A stretch of 64,000 bases of DNA from Desulfatibacillum alkenivorans DSM 16219 (GTDB taxonomy: Bacteria; Desulfobacterota; Desulfobacteria; Desulfobacterales; Desulfatibacillaceae). The stretch is from assembly GCF_900142135.1 (NCBI RefSeq), contig NZ_FQZU01000013.1, positions 62,001 through 126,000 of the forward strand, in the 5' to 3' direction. Below are positions 48,745 to 55,078 of the stretch, in pieces. How positions within the stretch are numbered: the stretch's first letter is position 1; every line of letters begins with the position of its first letter. The notes under the pieces are model-generated. The model worked only from the letters and a program-made list of their open reading frames with translations, searched no databases and was not told where the DNA came from. Both the position numbers and the translations under genes were made by a program.

Positions 48745-50472
48745 TTAAACCGGATTGTTGAAATCCGGGGCGCTTTTCTTAAGCATGCCGTATCCGCCCT
48801 GGATGTTGACGGTGTCCGTAATGCCGTGACTGGCCAGCAAGCATTGCGCTTCATACGACCTGGGCCCGGTGTCGCAAATCAGGCACAACTGGCCGGTCCC
48901 GTACCCGTTTCCGTTGATCTCGCCGATCCGGGCGGCAAGCTGGTCCTGAGGGATGTTGACCCACCTGTCGCCGAAGCGTTCCACAAAAGGCTGGGATTCG
49001 GGTTTGCCCCGAACGTCCAGAACGTGAGCCTTGGCCTCGTCAAAGAGCTTCAGAAAATCCGCCACGTCAATGGGCTTGTTTTTGCCCTTAAGAATGTTGT
49101 CCAAGGCATTGCCCGCATTGTTTACAATATCCATGGCCGAAGCAAAGGGCGGCGCATAAGTGACTTCCAACGCCGTGATGTCCGAAACGTCCGGTCCGAA
49201 AGGCAATACCGCGGACACGGCGTCCACCCGGGCTTTTACGGCGTCGCCGTTATGGCCCACGGCCTCCACGCCGAGCACCTTGTGGGTGGTTTTATCCGCA
49301 ATGAGCTTCATGTACATCAATTGGTTGGTGGGGTAAAAATGGGCGCGATCCGCCTGCACAACCACAGCATGCACCGGATCGAATCCAGCGTCTTGGGCCT
49401 GGGCTGCGGTCAGGCCGGCCGAGGCCACGCCCATCTCGAATGCCTTGAGGCAAAAAGCGCCTACGCTGCCTTTAAACTGGGCGTTTCCGCCGGCGATGTT
49501 CGTGCCTATCACCCGGCCTTCCCGGTTGGCCAAAGAACCGAAGGCCATGGGAACTTTTTGGCCGCTGATCAAATGAGTCAGTTCAATGCAGTCGCCTCCG
49601 GCGAAAATATTCGGGTCCGAAGTCCGCAGGGTGTTGTCCACCAGAATGCCGCCGTGCGGCCCAATGGCCAGCCCGGCTTTTGCCGCCAAATCGGCGTTGG
49701 GCCTGACCCCGACAGCCAGCACGACCAACTGGCAGGGGATATCCCGCTTATTGGTCTTGACGCCTTCCACGCCGGTTTCAGGCGTCCCCACAATCCGGGT
49801 TACGGACTCGCCCAGAAGAATCCGGACGTCATGCTCCTCCATATGGTTTTTTACAATCAGGCCCATGTCCGGCCCGATGGCCGTGGGAAGTAAATGCTCC
49901 ATCATTTCCACCAGGGTGGTTTCCACCCCCCATAGGTCGGCCAGGGCTTCCGCCATTTCCACGCCGATGGCGCCGCCGCCGATAACCACCGCCGACTCCA
50001 CCTGGCCCTTGGAAATTTTTTCCTTAATCTCCTTGGCGTTATGCAGATTGGCCACCACGGACACGCCAGGCAGATCCGCCCCGGGAATGGGCGGTACAAC
50101 CGGGTTGGCCCCAGTCGCCAGGACCAGCTTGTCGTAATCCAGCGTTTTTTCTTCACCAGTCGCCCGGTTGCGCACGCTGACGGTCTTGCCTTTTCGGTCT
50201 ATATCCGTCACTTCCGTCCGGCTAAGGACGTTCACGCCCTTGACGGTCTTAAAAAAACGATCGTCGCGAATGGCGTGTGAACTGGTGGAGTACAAGCCTT
50301 CCAGGTCGGCGACGTCCCCGCCCACATAATAAGGAATGCCGCATCCGCCGTAGGAAATCAGGTTATCGCGATCTATCAGGGTAACATGGGCGGACGGGTC
50401 CAGGCGCCTTAACCGGCAAGCCACCTTGGGTCCGAGAGCCACGGCCCCTATGATTAAAACTTTTTGTCCCAT
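48745..50472 (-). CDS. CoA-disulfide/persulfide reductase fused to rhodanese domain
   Basis: 575 residues. The N-terminal part is a pyridine nucleotide-disulfide oxidoreductase: VLIIGAVALGPKVACRLR binds FAD, SYGGCGIPYYVGG carries the single active-site Cys of CoA-disulfide reductases, and VVIGGGAIGVEMAEAL binds NAD(P)H. The C-terminal part (about 475-560) is a rhodanese domain whose loop CDTGPRS has the active Cys in the CxxGxRS pattern. This is the layout of CoADR-Rhd/NADH-dependent persulfide reductases (Npsr), which reduce CoA or protein persulfides and polysulfides. It is the last gene of a minus-strand operon after DsrE-like and TusA-like genes, so persulfide handling in the cytosol is likely. 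GAAGGTGA before the ATG supports the start. Confidence 0.9.
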   Translation of the reverse strand: MGQKVLIIGAVALGPKVACRLRRLDPSAHVTLIDRDNLISYGGCGIPYYVGGDVADLEGLYSTSSHAIRDDRFFKTVKGVNVLSRTEVTDIDRKGKTVSVRNRATGEEKTLDYDKLVLATGANPVVPPIPGADLPGVSVVANLHNAKEIKEKISKGQVESAVVIGGGAIGVEMAEALADLWGVETTLVEMMEHLLPTAIGPDMGLIVKNHMEEHDVRILLGESVTRIVGTPETGVEGVKTNKRDIPCQLVVLAVGVRPNADLAAKAGLAIGPHGGILVDNTLRTSDPNIFAGGDCIELTHLISGQKVPMAFGSLANREGRVIGTNIAGGNAQFKGSVGAFCLKAFEMGVASAGLTAAQAQDAGFDPVHAVVVQADRAHFYPTNQLMYMKLIADKTTHKVLGVEAVGHNGDAVKARVDAVSAVLPFGPDVSDITALEVTYAPPFASAMDIVNNAGNALDNILKGKNKPIDVADFLKLFDEAKAHVLDVRGKPESQPFVERFGDRWVNIPQDQLAARIGEINGNGYGTGQLCLICDTGPRSYEAQCLLASHGITDTVNIQGGYGMLKKSAPDFNNPV

Positions 50473-50490
50473 GTTAAATCACCTTCTTTC

Positions 50491-50850
50491 TTACAGGCTG
50501 ATAACTGCGCTTTCACAGGAAAGACGAATCAGTTCCGTAGCAGGAGCCATTCTGGCGCCGTCAATCAAATCTTCTTCAGCAACGCGGCGAGCCTTGGCGC
50601 AAGGCGTGCACACCAAAATGGGCACTTCATGGGCCTGCAGGTAGGTCAACAGGTCGTCGGCCACGTCGCCGGTGGCGGCGCGGACATGCTCGATCAGGCC
50701 TTCTTTGGCCAGATACACGGCTTCATCCAGCAAAAACATGGTCACTTCCTTGCCTTCCTTATGGGCCACGGTGGCCAGATGAAAAGCGCGGGTGGAACGA
50801 TTGGTGTTATTGGTGCCGCAGGAAAGAGCGATAAGAACTTTGTTGGTCAT
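50491..50850 (-). CDS. DsrE/DsrF-like sulfur-relay protein
   Basis: 119 residues with the DsrE fold: the N-terminal strand KVLIALSCGTNN, a helix with FHLATVAHKEGKEV, MFLLDEAVYLAKEG, then HEVPILVCTPCAKAR with two Cys. DsrE proteins carry sulfur as a Cys-persulfide. The Cys in LVCTPCAKAR occupies the usual active position. I start at 50850, because AAAGGA lies before that ATG and would be inside the gene if the ATG at 50868 were used. It lies between the TusA-like and reductase genes (18 bp before the latter), and this order suggests a persulfide relay. Confidence 0.85.
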   Translation of the reverse strand: MTNKVLIALSCGTNNTNRSTRAFHLATVAHKEGKEVTMFLLDEAVYLAKEGLIEHVRAATGDVADDLLTYLQAHEVPILVCTPCAKARRVAEEDLIDGARMAPATELIRLSCESAVISL

Positions 50851-50886
50851 GGTCTGGTTTCCTTTCATTATAGGCTCGGCGCCTGT

Positions 50887-51117
50887 TTAAAGTTTTCGGA
50901 TGACAGTCCTGTATCCGTTTTCATTCTGGTAATTATCCTCAACAGAGACCACTTCAAATCGTCCGGCCGGAAGTATGGTCTGGATATCCGACGCCGGGCC
51001 TGAGTCGTTGCATATGATCTCCATGGATTCCCCTGACTCCATCTTGTGGAAGTGATTGGTCGCCTGAAGCAACGAAAGCGGTATGATCGTGTCTCTTAAA
51101 TCAAATTGTTTCATCAT
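50887..51117 (-). CDS. TusA-fold protein lacking the CPxP cysteine
   Basis: 76 residues that align to the TusA/SirA fold: FDLRDTIIPLSLLQATNHFHKMESGESMEI, then a C-terminal beta-strand half (RFEVVSVEDNYQNENGYRTVIRK). The family's DxRGxxCPxP loop reads DLRDTIIPLS, so the sulfur-carrying Cys is replaced by Ile and the Pro is kept. The only Cys (EIICNDSG) is elsewhere. It may be a non-sulfur-carrying scaffold or regulator for its DsrE and reductase neighbours. I start at 51117 because the longer frame begins inside the sigma-54 promoter, and a GGGGCC site precedes this ATG. First gene of the operon. Confidence 0.7.
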   Translation of the reverse strand: MMKQFDLRDTIIPLSLLQATNHFHKMESGESMEIICNDSGPASDIQTILPAGRFEVVSVEDNYQNENGYRTVIRKL

Positions 51118-51169
51118 GCGTTCAGGCCCCTTTAATGTTTTGCCTTGCCCTAAAGTCATCCTCCTTATT

Positions 51170-51185
51170 GGCAAACTTGGCGCCA
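51170..51185 (-). promoter_or_regulatory. sigma-54 (-24/-12) promoter of the sulfur-relay operon
   Basis: Read on the minus strand, TGGCGCCAAGTTTGCC matches TGGCAC-N5-TTGCW, with the GG and GC 10 bp apart. It lies just over 50 bp before the ATG of the TusA-like gene, placing the start of transcription near 51158. A divergently transcribed sigma-54 activator gene begins 170 bp away, as expected. Confidence 0.75.
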
Positions 51186-51305
51186 GAACGATTAAAGATT
51201 TAATTAAAATTGCCTAAATTTTTGAATTTAAACAAAAATTTTAGGGGTTCTTGGCGCTGCATATGGATAGGCAGGTAAAATCTTCTGGCTATAGTGGTCC
51301 TGATG

Positions 51306-51345
51306 TGTTAACTTGTTAAACAGAGTTGATGTTAATTTTCTTAAC
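51306..51345 (+). promoter_or_regulatory. two TTAAC/GTTAA inverted repeats, possible activator sites
   Basis: TTAAC-TT-GTTAA (51308-51319) and GTTAA-N5-TTAAC (51331-51345) lie just before the ATG of the sigma-54 activator and about 120-190 bp upstream of the -24/-12 element. That is a normal distance for enhancer-type binding sites. The call is tentative. Confidence 0.4.
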
Positions 51346-51357
51346 ATAGGTGAACAC

Positions 51358-52755
51358 ATGAACAGCTCAGACCTGAACCTCTATTGGAAAACCGTGGTGG
51401 ACACCATCCAGGACGGCGTAATGATCGTCAGCCCGGAAGGAACCATCATATCGGTGAACAAGGGATTTGAAACCATCACCGGCTACTCCCAAAGTGAAGT
51501 TCTTGGGCAGTCCTGCACCTTGCTGGGGTGCAGTTCGTGTGAAATCGCCAGAAACGCGGAGGGCTGCCACTGGTGCGTGATGTTCAAGCACGGCAGGCTT
51601 CGGAGGCAGCGCTGCGCCCTGATTCGCAAGGACGGCACGCCGGTCCGGATTGTGAAAAACGCCTCTGTGCTGAAAGACGGCGAAGGGCAGATTATCGGAG
51701 CGGTGGAGACCATTACGGACATCACCGACCTGACGACCAAGGAAAGCCTGATTGCCTCCTATCGTCAGGAGTTGGACGCCCAGGACCGGTTTTACGGCAT
51801 GATCGGGGCTTCGGCGCCCATGCAAGCCCTGTTTGAGCTGATTCGCAACGCCGGCCAATCGGACGCGCCGGTGATCATCTTTGGAGAAAGCGGAACGGGC
51901 AAGGAATTGATCGCCAAGGCCATTCACGAGGCCGGGTCCCGCAGCCGGTCTCCTTATATAAAGGTGAATTGTGCAGCTTTGAACGAATCGTTGTTGGAAA
52001 GCGAGCTTTTCGGACATGTAAAAGGTTCGTTCACAGGCGCGCACAGGGACCGGGAAGGGCGGTTTGAGGCTGCGGATAAAGGGGACATCTTTCTGGACGA
52101 AATAGGGGATTTGCCCCTGTCCACCCAGGTCAAACTCTTGCGGGTGCTGGAGGAGAAGGTGGTGGAAAGGGTGGGGGACCACAGGCCCATCCAGGTGGAC
52201 GTGCGCATTATATCCGCCACCAACCGGGATTTGCAGGCCCTTATTGCCAAAGGCGAATTCCGCGAGGATTTTTTCTACCGGATCAACGTCATTCCCCTGC
52301 GGGCGCCTTCGCTTCGGGAGCGCAAGGAGGACATCCCGCTTCTGGCCAGGTCTTTTTTCAACCGCATCCGCATGAAAAGCGGCAAGGACATCCAGGGGAT
52401 TTCCAGAGAGGCTATGGACGCCCTGGTCAATTACAACTGGCCGGGTAATGTGCGGGAGCTGAAAAGCGCCCTGGAGTTCGCCTTTGTCTCTTGCCATGAG
52501 GAGTTGATCGAGCCCCGGCACTTGCCCGCGCCCATAGCAGCGCAGCCGGATTGCGCGCCGCCGCAGCCTTTCCCTTTGCATAGCAGGGGGCCTGGCGGCG
52601 CCACATTGGATCAGGTTAAAAAGACGCGCCTGATAGAGGCCTTAACCTCAGCCAGGGGCAACCAATCCGAGGCGGCCAGAATCCTGGGAATCTCCCGCAC
52701 CAGCGTCTGGGCTCAGGCCAAGCGCTACGGCGTCAACCCGGCGGATTATGCTTAA
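51358..52755 (+). CDS. sigma-54-dependent transcriptional activator with Cys-rich PAS domain
   Basis: 465 residues: an N-terminal PAS domain (about 8-125), an AAA+ central domain (about 140-375) and a Fis-type helix-turn-helix (about 420-465, QSEAARILGISRTSVW). The AAA+ domain has GESGTGKE (Walker A), GSFTGA (contact with sigma-54), GDIFLDEIGDLP (Walker B) and the arginine-finger region FREDFFYRIN. Six Cys lie within about 40 residues of the PAS domain (QSC, LGC, SSC, EGC, HWC, QRC), which suggests redox, metal or sulfide sensing. I start at 51358, where AGGTGA precedes the ATG. It probably activates the divergent TusA/DsrE/reductase operon. The signal is unknown. Confidence 0.9.
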   Translation: MNSSDLNLYWKTVVDTIQDGVMIVSPEGTIISVNKGFETITGYSQSEVLGQSCTLLGCSSCEIARNAEGCHWCVMFKHGRLRRQRCALIRKDGTPVRIVKNASVLKDGEGQIIGAVETITDITDLTTKESLIASYRQELDAQDRFYGMIGASAPMQALFELIRNAGQSDAPVIIFGESGTGKELIAKAIHEAGSRSRSPYIKVNCAALNESLLESELFGHVKGSFTGAHRDREGRFEAADKGDIFLDEIGDLPLSTQVKLLRVLEEKVVERVGDHRPIQVDVRIISATNRDLQALIAKGEFREDFFYRINVIPLRAPSLRERKEDIPLLARSFFNRIRMKSGKDIQGISREAMDALVNYNWPGNVRELKSALEFAFVSCHEELIEPRHLPAPIAAQPDCAPPQPFPLHSRGPGGATLDQVKKTRLIEALTSARGNQSEAARILGISRTSVWAQAKRYGVNPADYA

Positions 52756-53372: not shown

Positions 53373-53777
53373 TTATGCAGGCCTAAACTTCGGCAGGGTG
53401 CATTCCTCCGAGACGTCGTCCCAATGCACCTGGACCGGCATGTCGCAGGCCAAGGATTCGTGGGGGCATTCCACAATGTTGGTGATCAACATGGGGCCTT
53501 CCTCCAACTCCACAATGGCGACCACGTAAGGAACCTTGTCCGCAAATTCGGGGTGAAAGGGCTGGTGGTATATCACGTAGCTGTATATGGTTCCTTTGCC
53601 GCCCGACTGAACCATTTCCACTTCCTGGGAATGGCAACGGGGGCAAAGAATGCCGGGAGGCCAGCGGATTTCTCCGCACTCGGCGCATTTCTGAAACAGC
53701 AGTTCATGATTCCGGCATCCTTCCCAAAAGGGCTTGGAGTCGGCGTCAGGCGTGGGCGTAAGATCGTTATAGGTCAT
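53373..53777 (-). CDS. Zn-ribbon/OB-fold (DUF35) acyl-CoA partner protein
   Basis: 134 residues with an N-terminal rubredoxin-like zinc ribbon (CAECGEIRWPPGILCPRC, two CxxC pairs) and a C-terminal OB fold (TIYSYVIYHQPFHPEF). DUF35 proteins pair with thiolase-like enzymes, as in BbsA/BbsB of benzylsuccinate breakdown, and form part of the acyl-CoA binding complex. It follows the thiolase-like gene by 5 bp and is the natural partner of it. The substrate is not predictable. Confidence 0.85.
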   Translation of the reverse strand: MTYNDLTPTPDADSKPFWEGCRNHELLFQKCAECGEIRWPPGILCPRCHSQEVEMVQSGGKGTIYSYVIYHQPFHPEFADKVPYVVAIVELEEGPMLITNIVECPHESLACDMPVQVHWDDVSEECTLPKFRPA

Positions 53778-53782
53778 GGCGG

Positions 53783-54946
53783 CTACCCCTTTTTAAGTAC
53801 AAAGCAAGCATGAGATTGGAGGATTCCTCCGTTGTCGCTGGCCAGGATGACTTCCGGCGGCTTGGTTTGGGTCTGGGGCCCAAGCTGCCTGTCGCCGCAT
53901 TGGCCGCGAAGCTGCATGACCGCCTCGGCAATGGGAGTCAGGCCCATGAAATACGCCTCGGACAATTGCCCGCCCGATGTGTTGACGGGCATGCTTCCTC
54001 CGGGCTCGATGGTTCCGCCCTTAAGCCAGTCTCCGCCTTCCCCAGGCCCGAAAAAACCATAGTCCTGCAAGGTGATTTCCACGGTGTAGGAAAAGCAGTC
54101 GTAAATCTGGCAGGCGTCCACGTCTTTCAGGCTGACGTCCGCCATTTGCAGGGCTTCCTTCCCGGCCTTTTTTGCGCCGGTGGGGCCGGCCATATATCTT
54201 GCCTGCCCGATTTCACGGGAGGGATTCTGCTGTCCCATGCCGGAAATCAAAACTGCGGGCTGCCTCAAATCCCTGGCCCTCTCGGCCGAGGTGACGATGA
54301 TGGCCCTGCCTCCGTCGCTGACAAGGCAGATATCCACCAGGCGGAAGGGATCGGCCGCCATGGGGGCCTTAAAATAGTCTTCCTCAGCCAAAGGCTTTTT
54401 GCCCATGACGGAGATGGGATTCAAGGCCGCCCATTTCCGCTGTCCGGAAGCAATGCGCTGCCAGGTTCCCGGTCCTGTCCCGAACTCGTGCATGGCCCTT
54501 CTGGCCGCCAGGGCGTATCCGCCCACAGCGCCGAAATGGCCGAAAGCCGCCTCGTTTCGGGTCATCTGAAAGAGCATTTGGGCCATGCCGCCGCCCCACA
54601 AGGCGCTGTGGCCGTAGGTGATGACCACGTAGTTGCAAATCCCGGCGTCAAGCACGCCAACTGCGTGCTGTAAATGAATGCGGGATCAGTTGGCGTCCTG
54701 GCTCAGGTAGGACGGCTCAATGCCAAGGTGCTGGGCGATGTGTTGCGGGGTGACGTCAGGCTCGCCCGGGCAGGGGGGAAAGTGACGATAGGCGATGAGG
54801 CCGTCAATGTCCTCTTTTTTCAGGCCTGCGTCTTTGATGGCGTTGGCCGTGGCTTCCAGATGAAAGCTCAACGACGTCCGGTCCGGGACCTTGCCCTGGG
54901 GCGTGTATCCGACTCCCACAATGGCGTATTTGTCTTTCAAGCTCAT
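53783..54946 (-). CDS. thiolase-like protein interrupted in frame by UGA (candidate selenoprotein or nonsense allele)
   Basis: A 387-codon gene of the SCP-2/lipid-transfer thiolase group, the usual length for the family. From the ATG at 54946 (MSLKDKYAIVGVGYTPQGK, with AAGGA before it) the frame runs to a TGA at 54686-54688 (codon 87) and then stays open, in the same frame, to 53783. Family motifs lie on both sides (VLDAGICNYVVITYG after; QIYDCFSYTVE and NTSGGQLSEAY later), so this is one gene. A 7-bp perfect hairpin begins 16 nt after the UGA (AGCACGC, loop AGTTG, GCGTGCT). By position the codon matches the Ser of the CxSG/GGAS thiolase motif, two residues past the catalytic Cys site, where this protein has Ala. 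Selenocysteine insertion is possible, and so is a nonsense mutation. Confidence 0.7.
54651..54669 (-). promoter_or_regulatory. candidate bacterial SECIS hairpin downstream of the in-frame UGA
   Basis: On the minus strand AGCACGC (54669-54663) pairs with GCGTGCT (54657-54651) around the loop AGTTG. The loop starts 23 nt after the UGA, has G in its first two positions followed by U, and the stem is 7 bp. These satisfy the published bacterial SECIS rules as I recall them (loop 16-37 nt from UGA, 3-14 nt loop, G near its start). Confidence 0.45.
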
Positions 54947-55078
54947 TAGAAAAGTCCTTGGGTTAAGAGAATTGTTAAGAACAAAAAAGCAGGTTGGCTT
55001 TTTTATAGTACCCAAGGCGAGCGGGGCAGGTCAAACACTCCATTGAAAGCAGGGATTCACAGGAATTTGCCTGGCTGC

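Follow-up and report, generated by a model that had tools for sequence, protein, structure and literature searches.

A thiolase-fold gene of Desulfatibacillum alkenivorans with an in-frame UGA codon probably read as selenocysteine and an adjacent DUF35 partner gene

Introduction

A thiolase-fold gene of Desulfatibacillum alkenivorans DSM 16219 is interrupted by a UGA at codon 87, and several lines of comparative evidence strongly support the recoding of this codon as selenocysteine (Sec), which would make the gene product a selenoprotein. We favor a selenoprotein over a nonsense allele because the aligned column holds only UGA or Cys in orthologues, a downstream hairpin is linked to UGA, purifying selection continues past the codon, and the selenocysteine machinery is present. 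The original prediction, made from the letters of a 64,000-nt stretch of contig NZ_FQZU01000013.1 (hereafter, the window), had called the gene a possible selenoprotein, and both the orthologue column and the Sec machinery bear this out. Regarding the explanation as a whole, we are highly confident that the gene encodes a SelB-recoded selenoprotein of thiolase fold, which would pair with DUF35, most likely performs aldolase-like carbon–carbon chemistry, and may use a Sec87 selenolate for it. The thiolase superfamily would thereby enter the selenoproteome and, if the assignment is true, there would be a selenoenzyme whose selenium may serve carbon–carbon bond chemistry. Because the Sec and the Cys version both occur naturally among relatives, the advantage of Sec over Cys is directly measurable. 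The case also has a practical side, in that gene callers reading UGA as a stop would split the gene in two in these anaerobes.

Results and discussion

Gene, UGA codon, and partner gene

The features discussed below are as follows (window coordinates).

53783..54946, minus strand: putative selenoprotein gene of thiolase fold, encoding 387 residues when the UGA is translated as Sec and ending with TAG
54686..54688, minus strand: UGA codon 87, presumed to be read as selenocysteine, in the motif DAN-U-SR
54651..54669, minus strand: predicted bacterial SECIS hairpin (5' arm 54669-54663; loop 54662-54658, AGUUG; 3' arm 54657-54651)
54095..54103, minus strand: codons 282-284, Tyr-Asp-Cys of YDCF, at the positions of the catalytic Tyr/Cys dyad in CtSal and of the base Tyr in TcLtp2
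53951..53953, minus strand: codon 332, the Tyr within SEAYF, which the alignment matches to Tyr344, the acid residue in TcLtp2
53373..53777, minus strand: DUF35 partner gene (ChsH2-type zinc ribbon and OB domain), directly downstream and intact

A mechanical list of open reading frames (ORFs) splits the gene into two ORFs, 54686-55015 and 53783-54655. The two halves nevertheless share one frame and join at the single UGA, as originally proposed, and the 387-residue reading from 54946 to 53783 on the minus strand was confirmed. The read-through product matches Pfam Thiolase_C_1 as well as 23 NCBIfam models, with PRK06158 ranked first and all of them below their curated cut-offs.

The DUF35 partner had been described as intact, and it is indeed an uninterrupted ORF (53777-53373). 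A DUF35 gene is adjacent in 46 of 48 orthologous loci, as it also is in the window; in one of the other two (L042) it lies approximately 360 nt away, and in the other (L054) no DUF35 was found in the 1,946 nt downstream. When ORFs of at least 80 amino acids were compared among the loci, with one greedy choice per overlap, no neighbor except DUF35 was common to more than six loci. Near the gene, at 48745-52755 of the window, ORFs that by their reading resemble a CoA-disulfide reductase/rhodanese, DsrE, TusA, and a sigma-54 type regulator were observed.

Residue 87 in orthologues

A pattern-based scan of one genome per species (84,980 species) yielded 56 loci. With the window added and L095, a 20-residue match, left unused, 56 genes were examined; codon 87 is UGA in 35 and Cys in 14, and the remaining 7 genes are distant or partial. 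L084 and L090 lack column 87. The UGA count includes L083, a partial match (307 of 387 residues, not a whole number of codons) that was excluded from the alignment, the codon scan, and both trees described below. A genome of the same genus (G001) has the same in-frame TGA in a gene of 78% identity. Further samples were then drawn from the class and the phylum: all 15 matches at E 1e-80 or better among 389 genomes of the class carry TGA, and 26 of 395 genomes of the phylum have a match, 17 with TGA and 9 with no stop. In the class of a Dehalococcoidales chromosome (G052, CP070645), 294 sampled genomes gave nine matches in eight genomes, none with a stop; four are orthologues at 61–65% identity and five are at 42–45%. 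All of these samples overlap the first scan, and removal of duplicates left nine UGA and eight Cys copies as new, to which one Cys gene read by eye (L147) was added, giving nine new Cys copies.

Altogether, the column corresponding to residue 87 is UGA in 44 and Cys in 23 non-duplicate orthologues, with no other residue and never Ser or Gly, a pattern that favors Sec. Exchange between Sec and Cys is a usual hallmark of selenoproteins, and some lineages use Cys in place of Sec87. The original prediction had also placed the codon in the Ser column of a GGAS motif. That placement holds against distant paralogues only, where 18 alignment rows have Ser, Thr, Gly, or Asn at column 87, whereas the orthologues have UGA or Cys throughout; these 18 rows are outside the family counts, and 16 of them are also outside the 48-orthologue tree. 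Separately, the five matches at 42–45% identity (L148–L152) form a related group, in which L151 is the same gene as L085. L151/L085 has GAS and L148, which keeps YDCF, has GAT, so that neither of these two has Cys or Sec; L149, L150, and L152 yielded no motif in automated reading.

To follow the two states along the phylogeny, a tree of 66 orthologues was built with column 87 masked and with L085, L088, and L148 as the outgroup. The Sec/Cys distribution takes four changes on this tree as compared with 19.1 for shuffled labels, and at least three of the four are forced by supported branches. A tree built earlier, and with more care, from 48 orthologues takes three changes; in it, two Cys groups branch from within the UGA rows. 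The Cys gene L122 falls within a supported set of six rows that includes the window gene. Because the outgroup rows sit on long branches, we make no claim as to whether Sec or Cys came first. Purifying selection is similar before and after codon 87, with dN of 0.02–0.18 against dS of 0.4–1.8 in seven gene pairs (six UGA pairs and one Cys pair).

SECIS hairpin

The hairpin described in the original prediction, AGCACGC-AGTTG-GCGTGCT, was found as described, with a perfect 7-bp stem that starts 16 nt past the UGA and a distance of 23 nt from the UGA to the loop. Two details required correction: G occupies only the second base of the loop (AGTTG), not the first two positions, and the estimate that such a stem would arise by chance in a percent of cases or less was too optimistic, since 1149 of 20000 synonymous shuffles (5.7%) had a 7-bp Watson–Crick stem at a permitted distance. 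In addition, 7 of the 363 codon positions of the gene have an equally long stem downstream, and 24 of 200 shuffles fold just as well as the window hairpin (folding z-score only -1.28). The single hairpin on its own is therefore weak evidence, and it is the comparative evidence that carries the case for a selenoprotein.

The published bacterial SECIS (bSECIS) model has a loop of 3–9 nt, an upper stem of 4–16 bp, a distance of 16–37 nt between the UGA and the loop, G in the first two loop positions, and a minimum free energy of at most -7.5, as given in PMC13188914. The window hairpin agrees with this model in every respect, having a 5-nt loop (AGUUG, with G second), a 7-bp stem, a distance of 23 nt, and a folding energy of -10.8 kcal/mol. 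Across orthologues, a hairpin in the same register at -3 kcal/mol or better is formed in 35 of 35 UGA genes versus 0 of 14 Cys genes. All 35 UGA genes in fact reach -6.5 kcal/mol or better in this register, and a few Cys genes fold in other registers, down to -5.9 kcal/mol. GU stands at loop positions 2–3 in every one of the 35 UGA genes and in 3 of the 14 Cys genes, and the loops of the former are AGUUG (26), GGUCG (4), CGUGG (3), and CGUGA (2). The nine further UGA genes each have at least six of the seven pairs together with a GU loop, and the most that was seen among the eight further Cys genes, which do not include L147, was five pairs in one.

The stem is not perfect in all UGA genes. 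The fourth pair is mismatched in 18 of 35 (A.C in 17 and T.C in 1) and the first is T.T in 6 of 35. The 18 mismatched genes form two short helices around the mismatch, at -6.5 to -6.9 kcal/mol in register; these hairpins fit the bSECIS model loosely, falling short of a continuous 4-bp stem and perhaps of the -7.5 limit. In several of the mismatched orthologues, a longer stretch folds best into a structure other than the hairpin. Covariation is slight, with one compensatory change, and carries little information in a stem that hardly varies.

Synonymous sites provide another view of the same stretch. Across the 34 UGA genes that could be scored, no seven-codon stretch is more constrained at synonymous sites than codons 94–100 (rank 1 of 251; mean z 9.44). 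The UGA genes use GCA at codon 95 in 26 of 34 (13% elsewhere), GTT at codon 96 in 26 of 34 (17% elsewhere), and GGC at codon 97 in 32 of 32 (40% elsewhere). The 14 Cys genes share too few residues for codons 94–100 to be scored as one stretch; their scores at codons 95, 98, and 100 are -1.1, -1.0, and -0.7, that at codon 99 is 3.7, and GCA is found at codon 95 in 4 of 14.

Selenocysteine machinery

The genome of D. alkenivorans (6.47 Mb, 100% complete, 0.11% contamination) was searched with profiles for selA, selB, selC, and selD, the genes that the original prediction had proposed to look for, and all four are present. They comprise SelB (contig C54, 384.7 bits; cut-off 242.25), tRNA-Sec (C25, 76.1 bits; also called by ARAGORN as tRNA-Sec with anticodon UCA), SelA (C90, 604.9 bits), and SelD (C17, 363.6 bits), the last with one in-frame TGA of its own. 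A short SelB-like match in the same genome (G000:C85) was rejected, being the start of an EF-Tu gene by frame reading. According to our proposal, the hairpin 16 nt downstream would direct SelB with Sec-tRNA to decode UGA-87 as selenocysteine.

In control genomes, the SelB model scored above its cut-off in 2 of 14 and the tRNA-Sec model passed its gathering score in 5 of 14, so that only tRNA-Sec matches of at least 69 bits were counted. SelB above the cut-off was found in 32 of 34 UGA-form genomes (L054 and L061 being counted as one genome) and also in 11 of 14 Cys-form genomes; the machinery alone thus does not separate the Sec and Cys forms. A tRNA-Sec of at least 69 bits was found in 28 of the 34 UGA-form genomes, and the lack of such a match in the other six is likely due to incomplete metagenome-assembled genomes (MAGs). 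Two UGA-form MAGs, G009 and G026, have no SelB above the cut-off. SelA and SelD, for which seven genomes were searched, are both present in G009 along with a 185-residue piece of SelB at a contig start; G026 has SelA and neither SelD nor a good tRNA-Sec, and the genome G387, which has the same gene as G026, is 71% complete.

Two side observations concern the machinery elsewhere. The chromosome G052 has SelA and a tRNA-Sec of 73.2 bits, with no SelB or SelD above the cut-offs, and its thiolase-like gene is of the Cys form. In two other genomes, a second SelB-like gene is immediately preceded by a second tRNA-Sec of divergent sequence (L154:261-1698 in G020:C135 and L155:1173-1262 in G013:C92). 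Both genomes carry another SelB above the cut-off. The second tRNA-Sec scores 53.4 bits with anticodon UCA at L154 and 44.2 bits, below the gathering score and with no ARAGORN call, at L155. Each tRNA-Sec and its SelB-like neighbor are possibly a duplicate Sec-decoding pair.

Alternatives to selenocysteine

The UGA might be a nonsense mutation or a sequencing error and the gene a pseudogene. Given the Ser, Thr, Gly, and Asn of the distant paralogues, one substitution in a Ser codon could conceivably have produced it, and a lone hairpin could be due to chance, as the shuffles demonstrated. A nonsense mutation had been regarded as an equally simple explanation, a view that we do not share: the same UGA recurs in 44 copies, the 23 other orthologues read all have Cys, the hairpin is retained in UGA genes only, and purifying selection extends past the UGA. 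We thus hold a pseudogene to be very improbable. Just as improbable is the production of two proteins, with an N-terminal fragment of 86 residues and a C-terminal fragment initiated internally, as the two listed ORFs would have it. The Cys orthologues are single unbroken chains, the predicted fold is continuous across residue 87, and the strongest synonymous constraint falls on the hairpin.

Least probable of all, in our view, is a general reassignment or readthrough of UGA in these organisms, an idea for which no support was found. Five UGA genes (L045, L047, L049, L071, and L074) themselves end at UGA, none of the 13 other family matches in the D. alkenivorans genome has an internal stop, and the hairpin accompanies UGA, not Cys. 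Taken together, these comparisons leave Sec as the preferred reading of codon 87, and the product would be a single 387-residue thiolase-fold chain.

Fold and active-site residues

An AlphaFold2 model built from 66 sequences has the thiolase fold (pLDDT 90.7, pTM 0.93). In this model, residue 87 is placed in the loop between a strand (80–83) and a helix (91–100), within a block (81–90) that is less certain (mean 79). In thiolases, the strand–helix loop before such a helix carries the nucleophile. The neighborhood of residue 87 is conserved, with Asn86 in 47 of 48 and Arg89 in 48 of 48 orthologues. YDCF (Tyr282 and Cys284) and Tyr332 are invariant in the 48 orthologues, as are five other cysteines besides position 87: Cys104, Cys207, Cys279, Cys284, and Cys350.

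These residues differ from those expected of a thiolase. The column of Ala85, which we take to be that of the thiolase nucleophile, holds Ala in 48 of 48 orthologues and Cys in the paralogues L009, L013, L020, and L024, and Sec is two residues further on (a loop register given by the alignment only). At column 332, all 48 orthologues have Tyr and 13 of 18 distant rows have His, which is presumably the thiolase active-site His. Hence, neither a nucleophilic Cys at the canonical column nor an active-site His is found. What is found instead are the features of DUF35-linked aldolases: a thiolase fold, the catalytic Tyr of YD[HC]F, an acid-type Tyr332 together with Cys284, and an adjacent DUF35 gene. 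The gene had been designated thiolase-like; the fold and the DUF35 partner agree with this designation, but as an enzyme name it is probably wrong and needs changing because Tyr282, Cys284, and Tyr332 resemble the catalytic residues of Ltp2 and Sal.

By its residues, the protein appears to share the build of the DUF35-linked aldolases, to which it adds Sec or Cys at position 87. It would be an acyl-CoA carbon–carbon lyase or synthase whose active site contains or adjoins a selenolate. Judging from residue conservation, its most likely reaction is the cleavage or formation of a C–C bond beside a CoA thioester, as catalyzed by the DUF35-linked retro-aldolases, by means of Tyr282, Cys284, and Tyr332. 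The chain would pair with the DUF35 protein of the next gene, as suggested by the adjacency of the genes and by the solved Ltp2-DUF35 and Sal-DUF35 complexes.

Possible role of Sec87

From the alignment and the model, we see about an even chance that Sec87 adds a selenolate to the active site, where it would act as a nucleophile or proton donor. The fuller proposal, that Sec87 is a catalytic selenolate in C–C chemistry on CoA thioesters, as a selenoester nucleophile or an enolate proton donor and not as a redox residue, is tentative and falls somewhat short of even. Its main rival is a redox switch in which Sec87 would pair with one of the five invariant cysteines. If the protein is a selenoprotein, Sec87 could be a redox or metal-ligand residue outside catalysis, for example in a selenenylsulfide off-switch with Cys284 under oxidation. 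Partner thiols do exist in the five cysteines invariant in 48 of 48 orthologues, and most uncharacterized selenoproteins are considered likely redox proteins in PMC13188914. However, there is no CxxU-type motif, and residue 87 is modeled in the loop ahead of helix 91–100, the loop that bears the nucleophile in thiolases, so that we regard such a role as rather unlikely.

A true thiolase, again given a selenoprotein, is slightly less likely still. Sec87 would then be the nucleophile acting from a shifted position and forming an acyl-selenoester. Column 87 holds Cys or Sec only, and the loop ahead of Sec87 is three residues shorter in the alignment than that of the Sphaerobacter structure 4u4e, which may bring Sec87 into place. 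On the other hand, Tyr332 stands where 13 of 18 paralogues have His, and the Tyr of YDCF is kept, as in aldolases.

Comparison with known systems

That no selenocysteine thiolase is known, as the original prediction had stated, is consistent with the sources consulted. No family named thiolase or aldolase is among the 119 prokaryotic selenoprotein families in Table 1 of a catalogue of May 2026 (PMC13188914), and none of the 23 matching NCBIfam models (June 2026) is named as a selenoprotein model. The word thiolase has no occurrence in the main text of PMC12013277 or PMC9312934. Five Sec genes are named for Desulfococcus multivorans in the relevant part of PMC5109826, with no thiolase among them. 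A literature search for a selenocysteine-containing thiolase returned no paper, and an annotated but unpublished RefSeq or GenBank entry may exist.

The nearest solved structures are 4u4e, the Ltp2-DUF35 complex 6ok1, and the Sal-DUF35 complex 9myr. The putative thiolase of Sphaerobacter thermophilus (4u4e) is the best match by both sequence (E 1.1e-66) and structure (Z 50.4); it differs in having the Ser of a GGSS motif where Sec87 is found here, and it is called putative with no function listed. The steroid aldolase Ltp2-ChsH2(DUF35) (6ok1) shares the thiolase fold (Z 50.1, rmsd 2.5 over 368 residues) and a DUF35 partner. TcLtp2 uses Tyr294 as a base and Tyr344 as an acid, as described in PMC12329534, and these align with Tyr282 and Tyr332. 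Unlike our protein, it has YDHF in place of YDCF and, by the register of the helix, Ala at the position of residue 87. Also unlike the Ltp2 system, no steroid genes were recognized beside the thiolase-fold gene among the nearby ORFs of the window and the shared neighbors. The bile acid aldolase Sal-Shy(DUF35) of Comamonas testosteroni (9myr) likewise has the thiolase fold (Z 49.5), and the catalytic dyad of CtSal, Tyr302 and Cys304 of YDCY in the account of PMC12329534, corresponds to Tyr282 and Cys284. It has Gln352 where Tyr332 is found here, no Sec is reported for Sal in the portion of the published account at hand, and its DUF35 belongs to the hydratase Shy as one of its domains, whereas a free-standing gene is present here. 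Most characterized selenoproteins have a thioredoxin-like fold, according to PMC13188914. What the gene has in common with the known prokaryotic selenoprotein families is an in-frame UGA followed by a downstream bSECIS, the existence of Cys homologues, and the presence of the Sel machinery.
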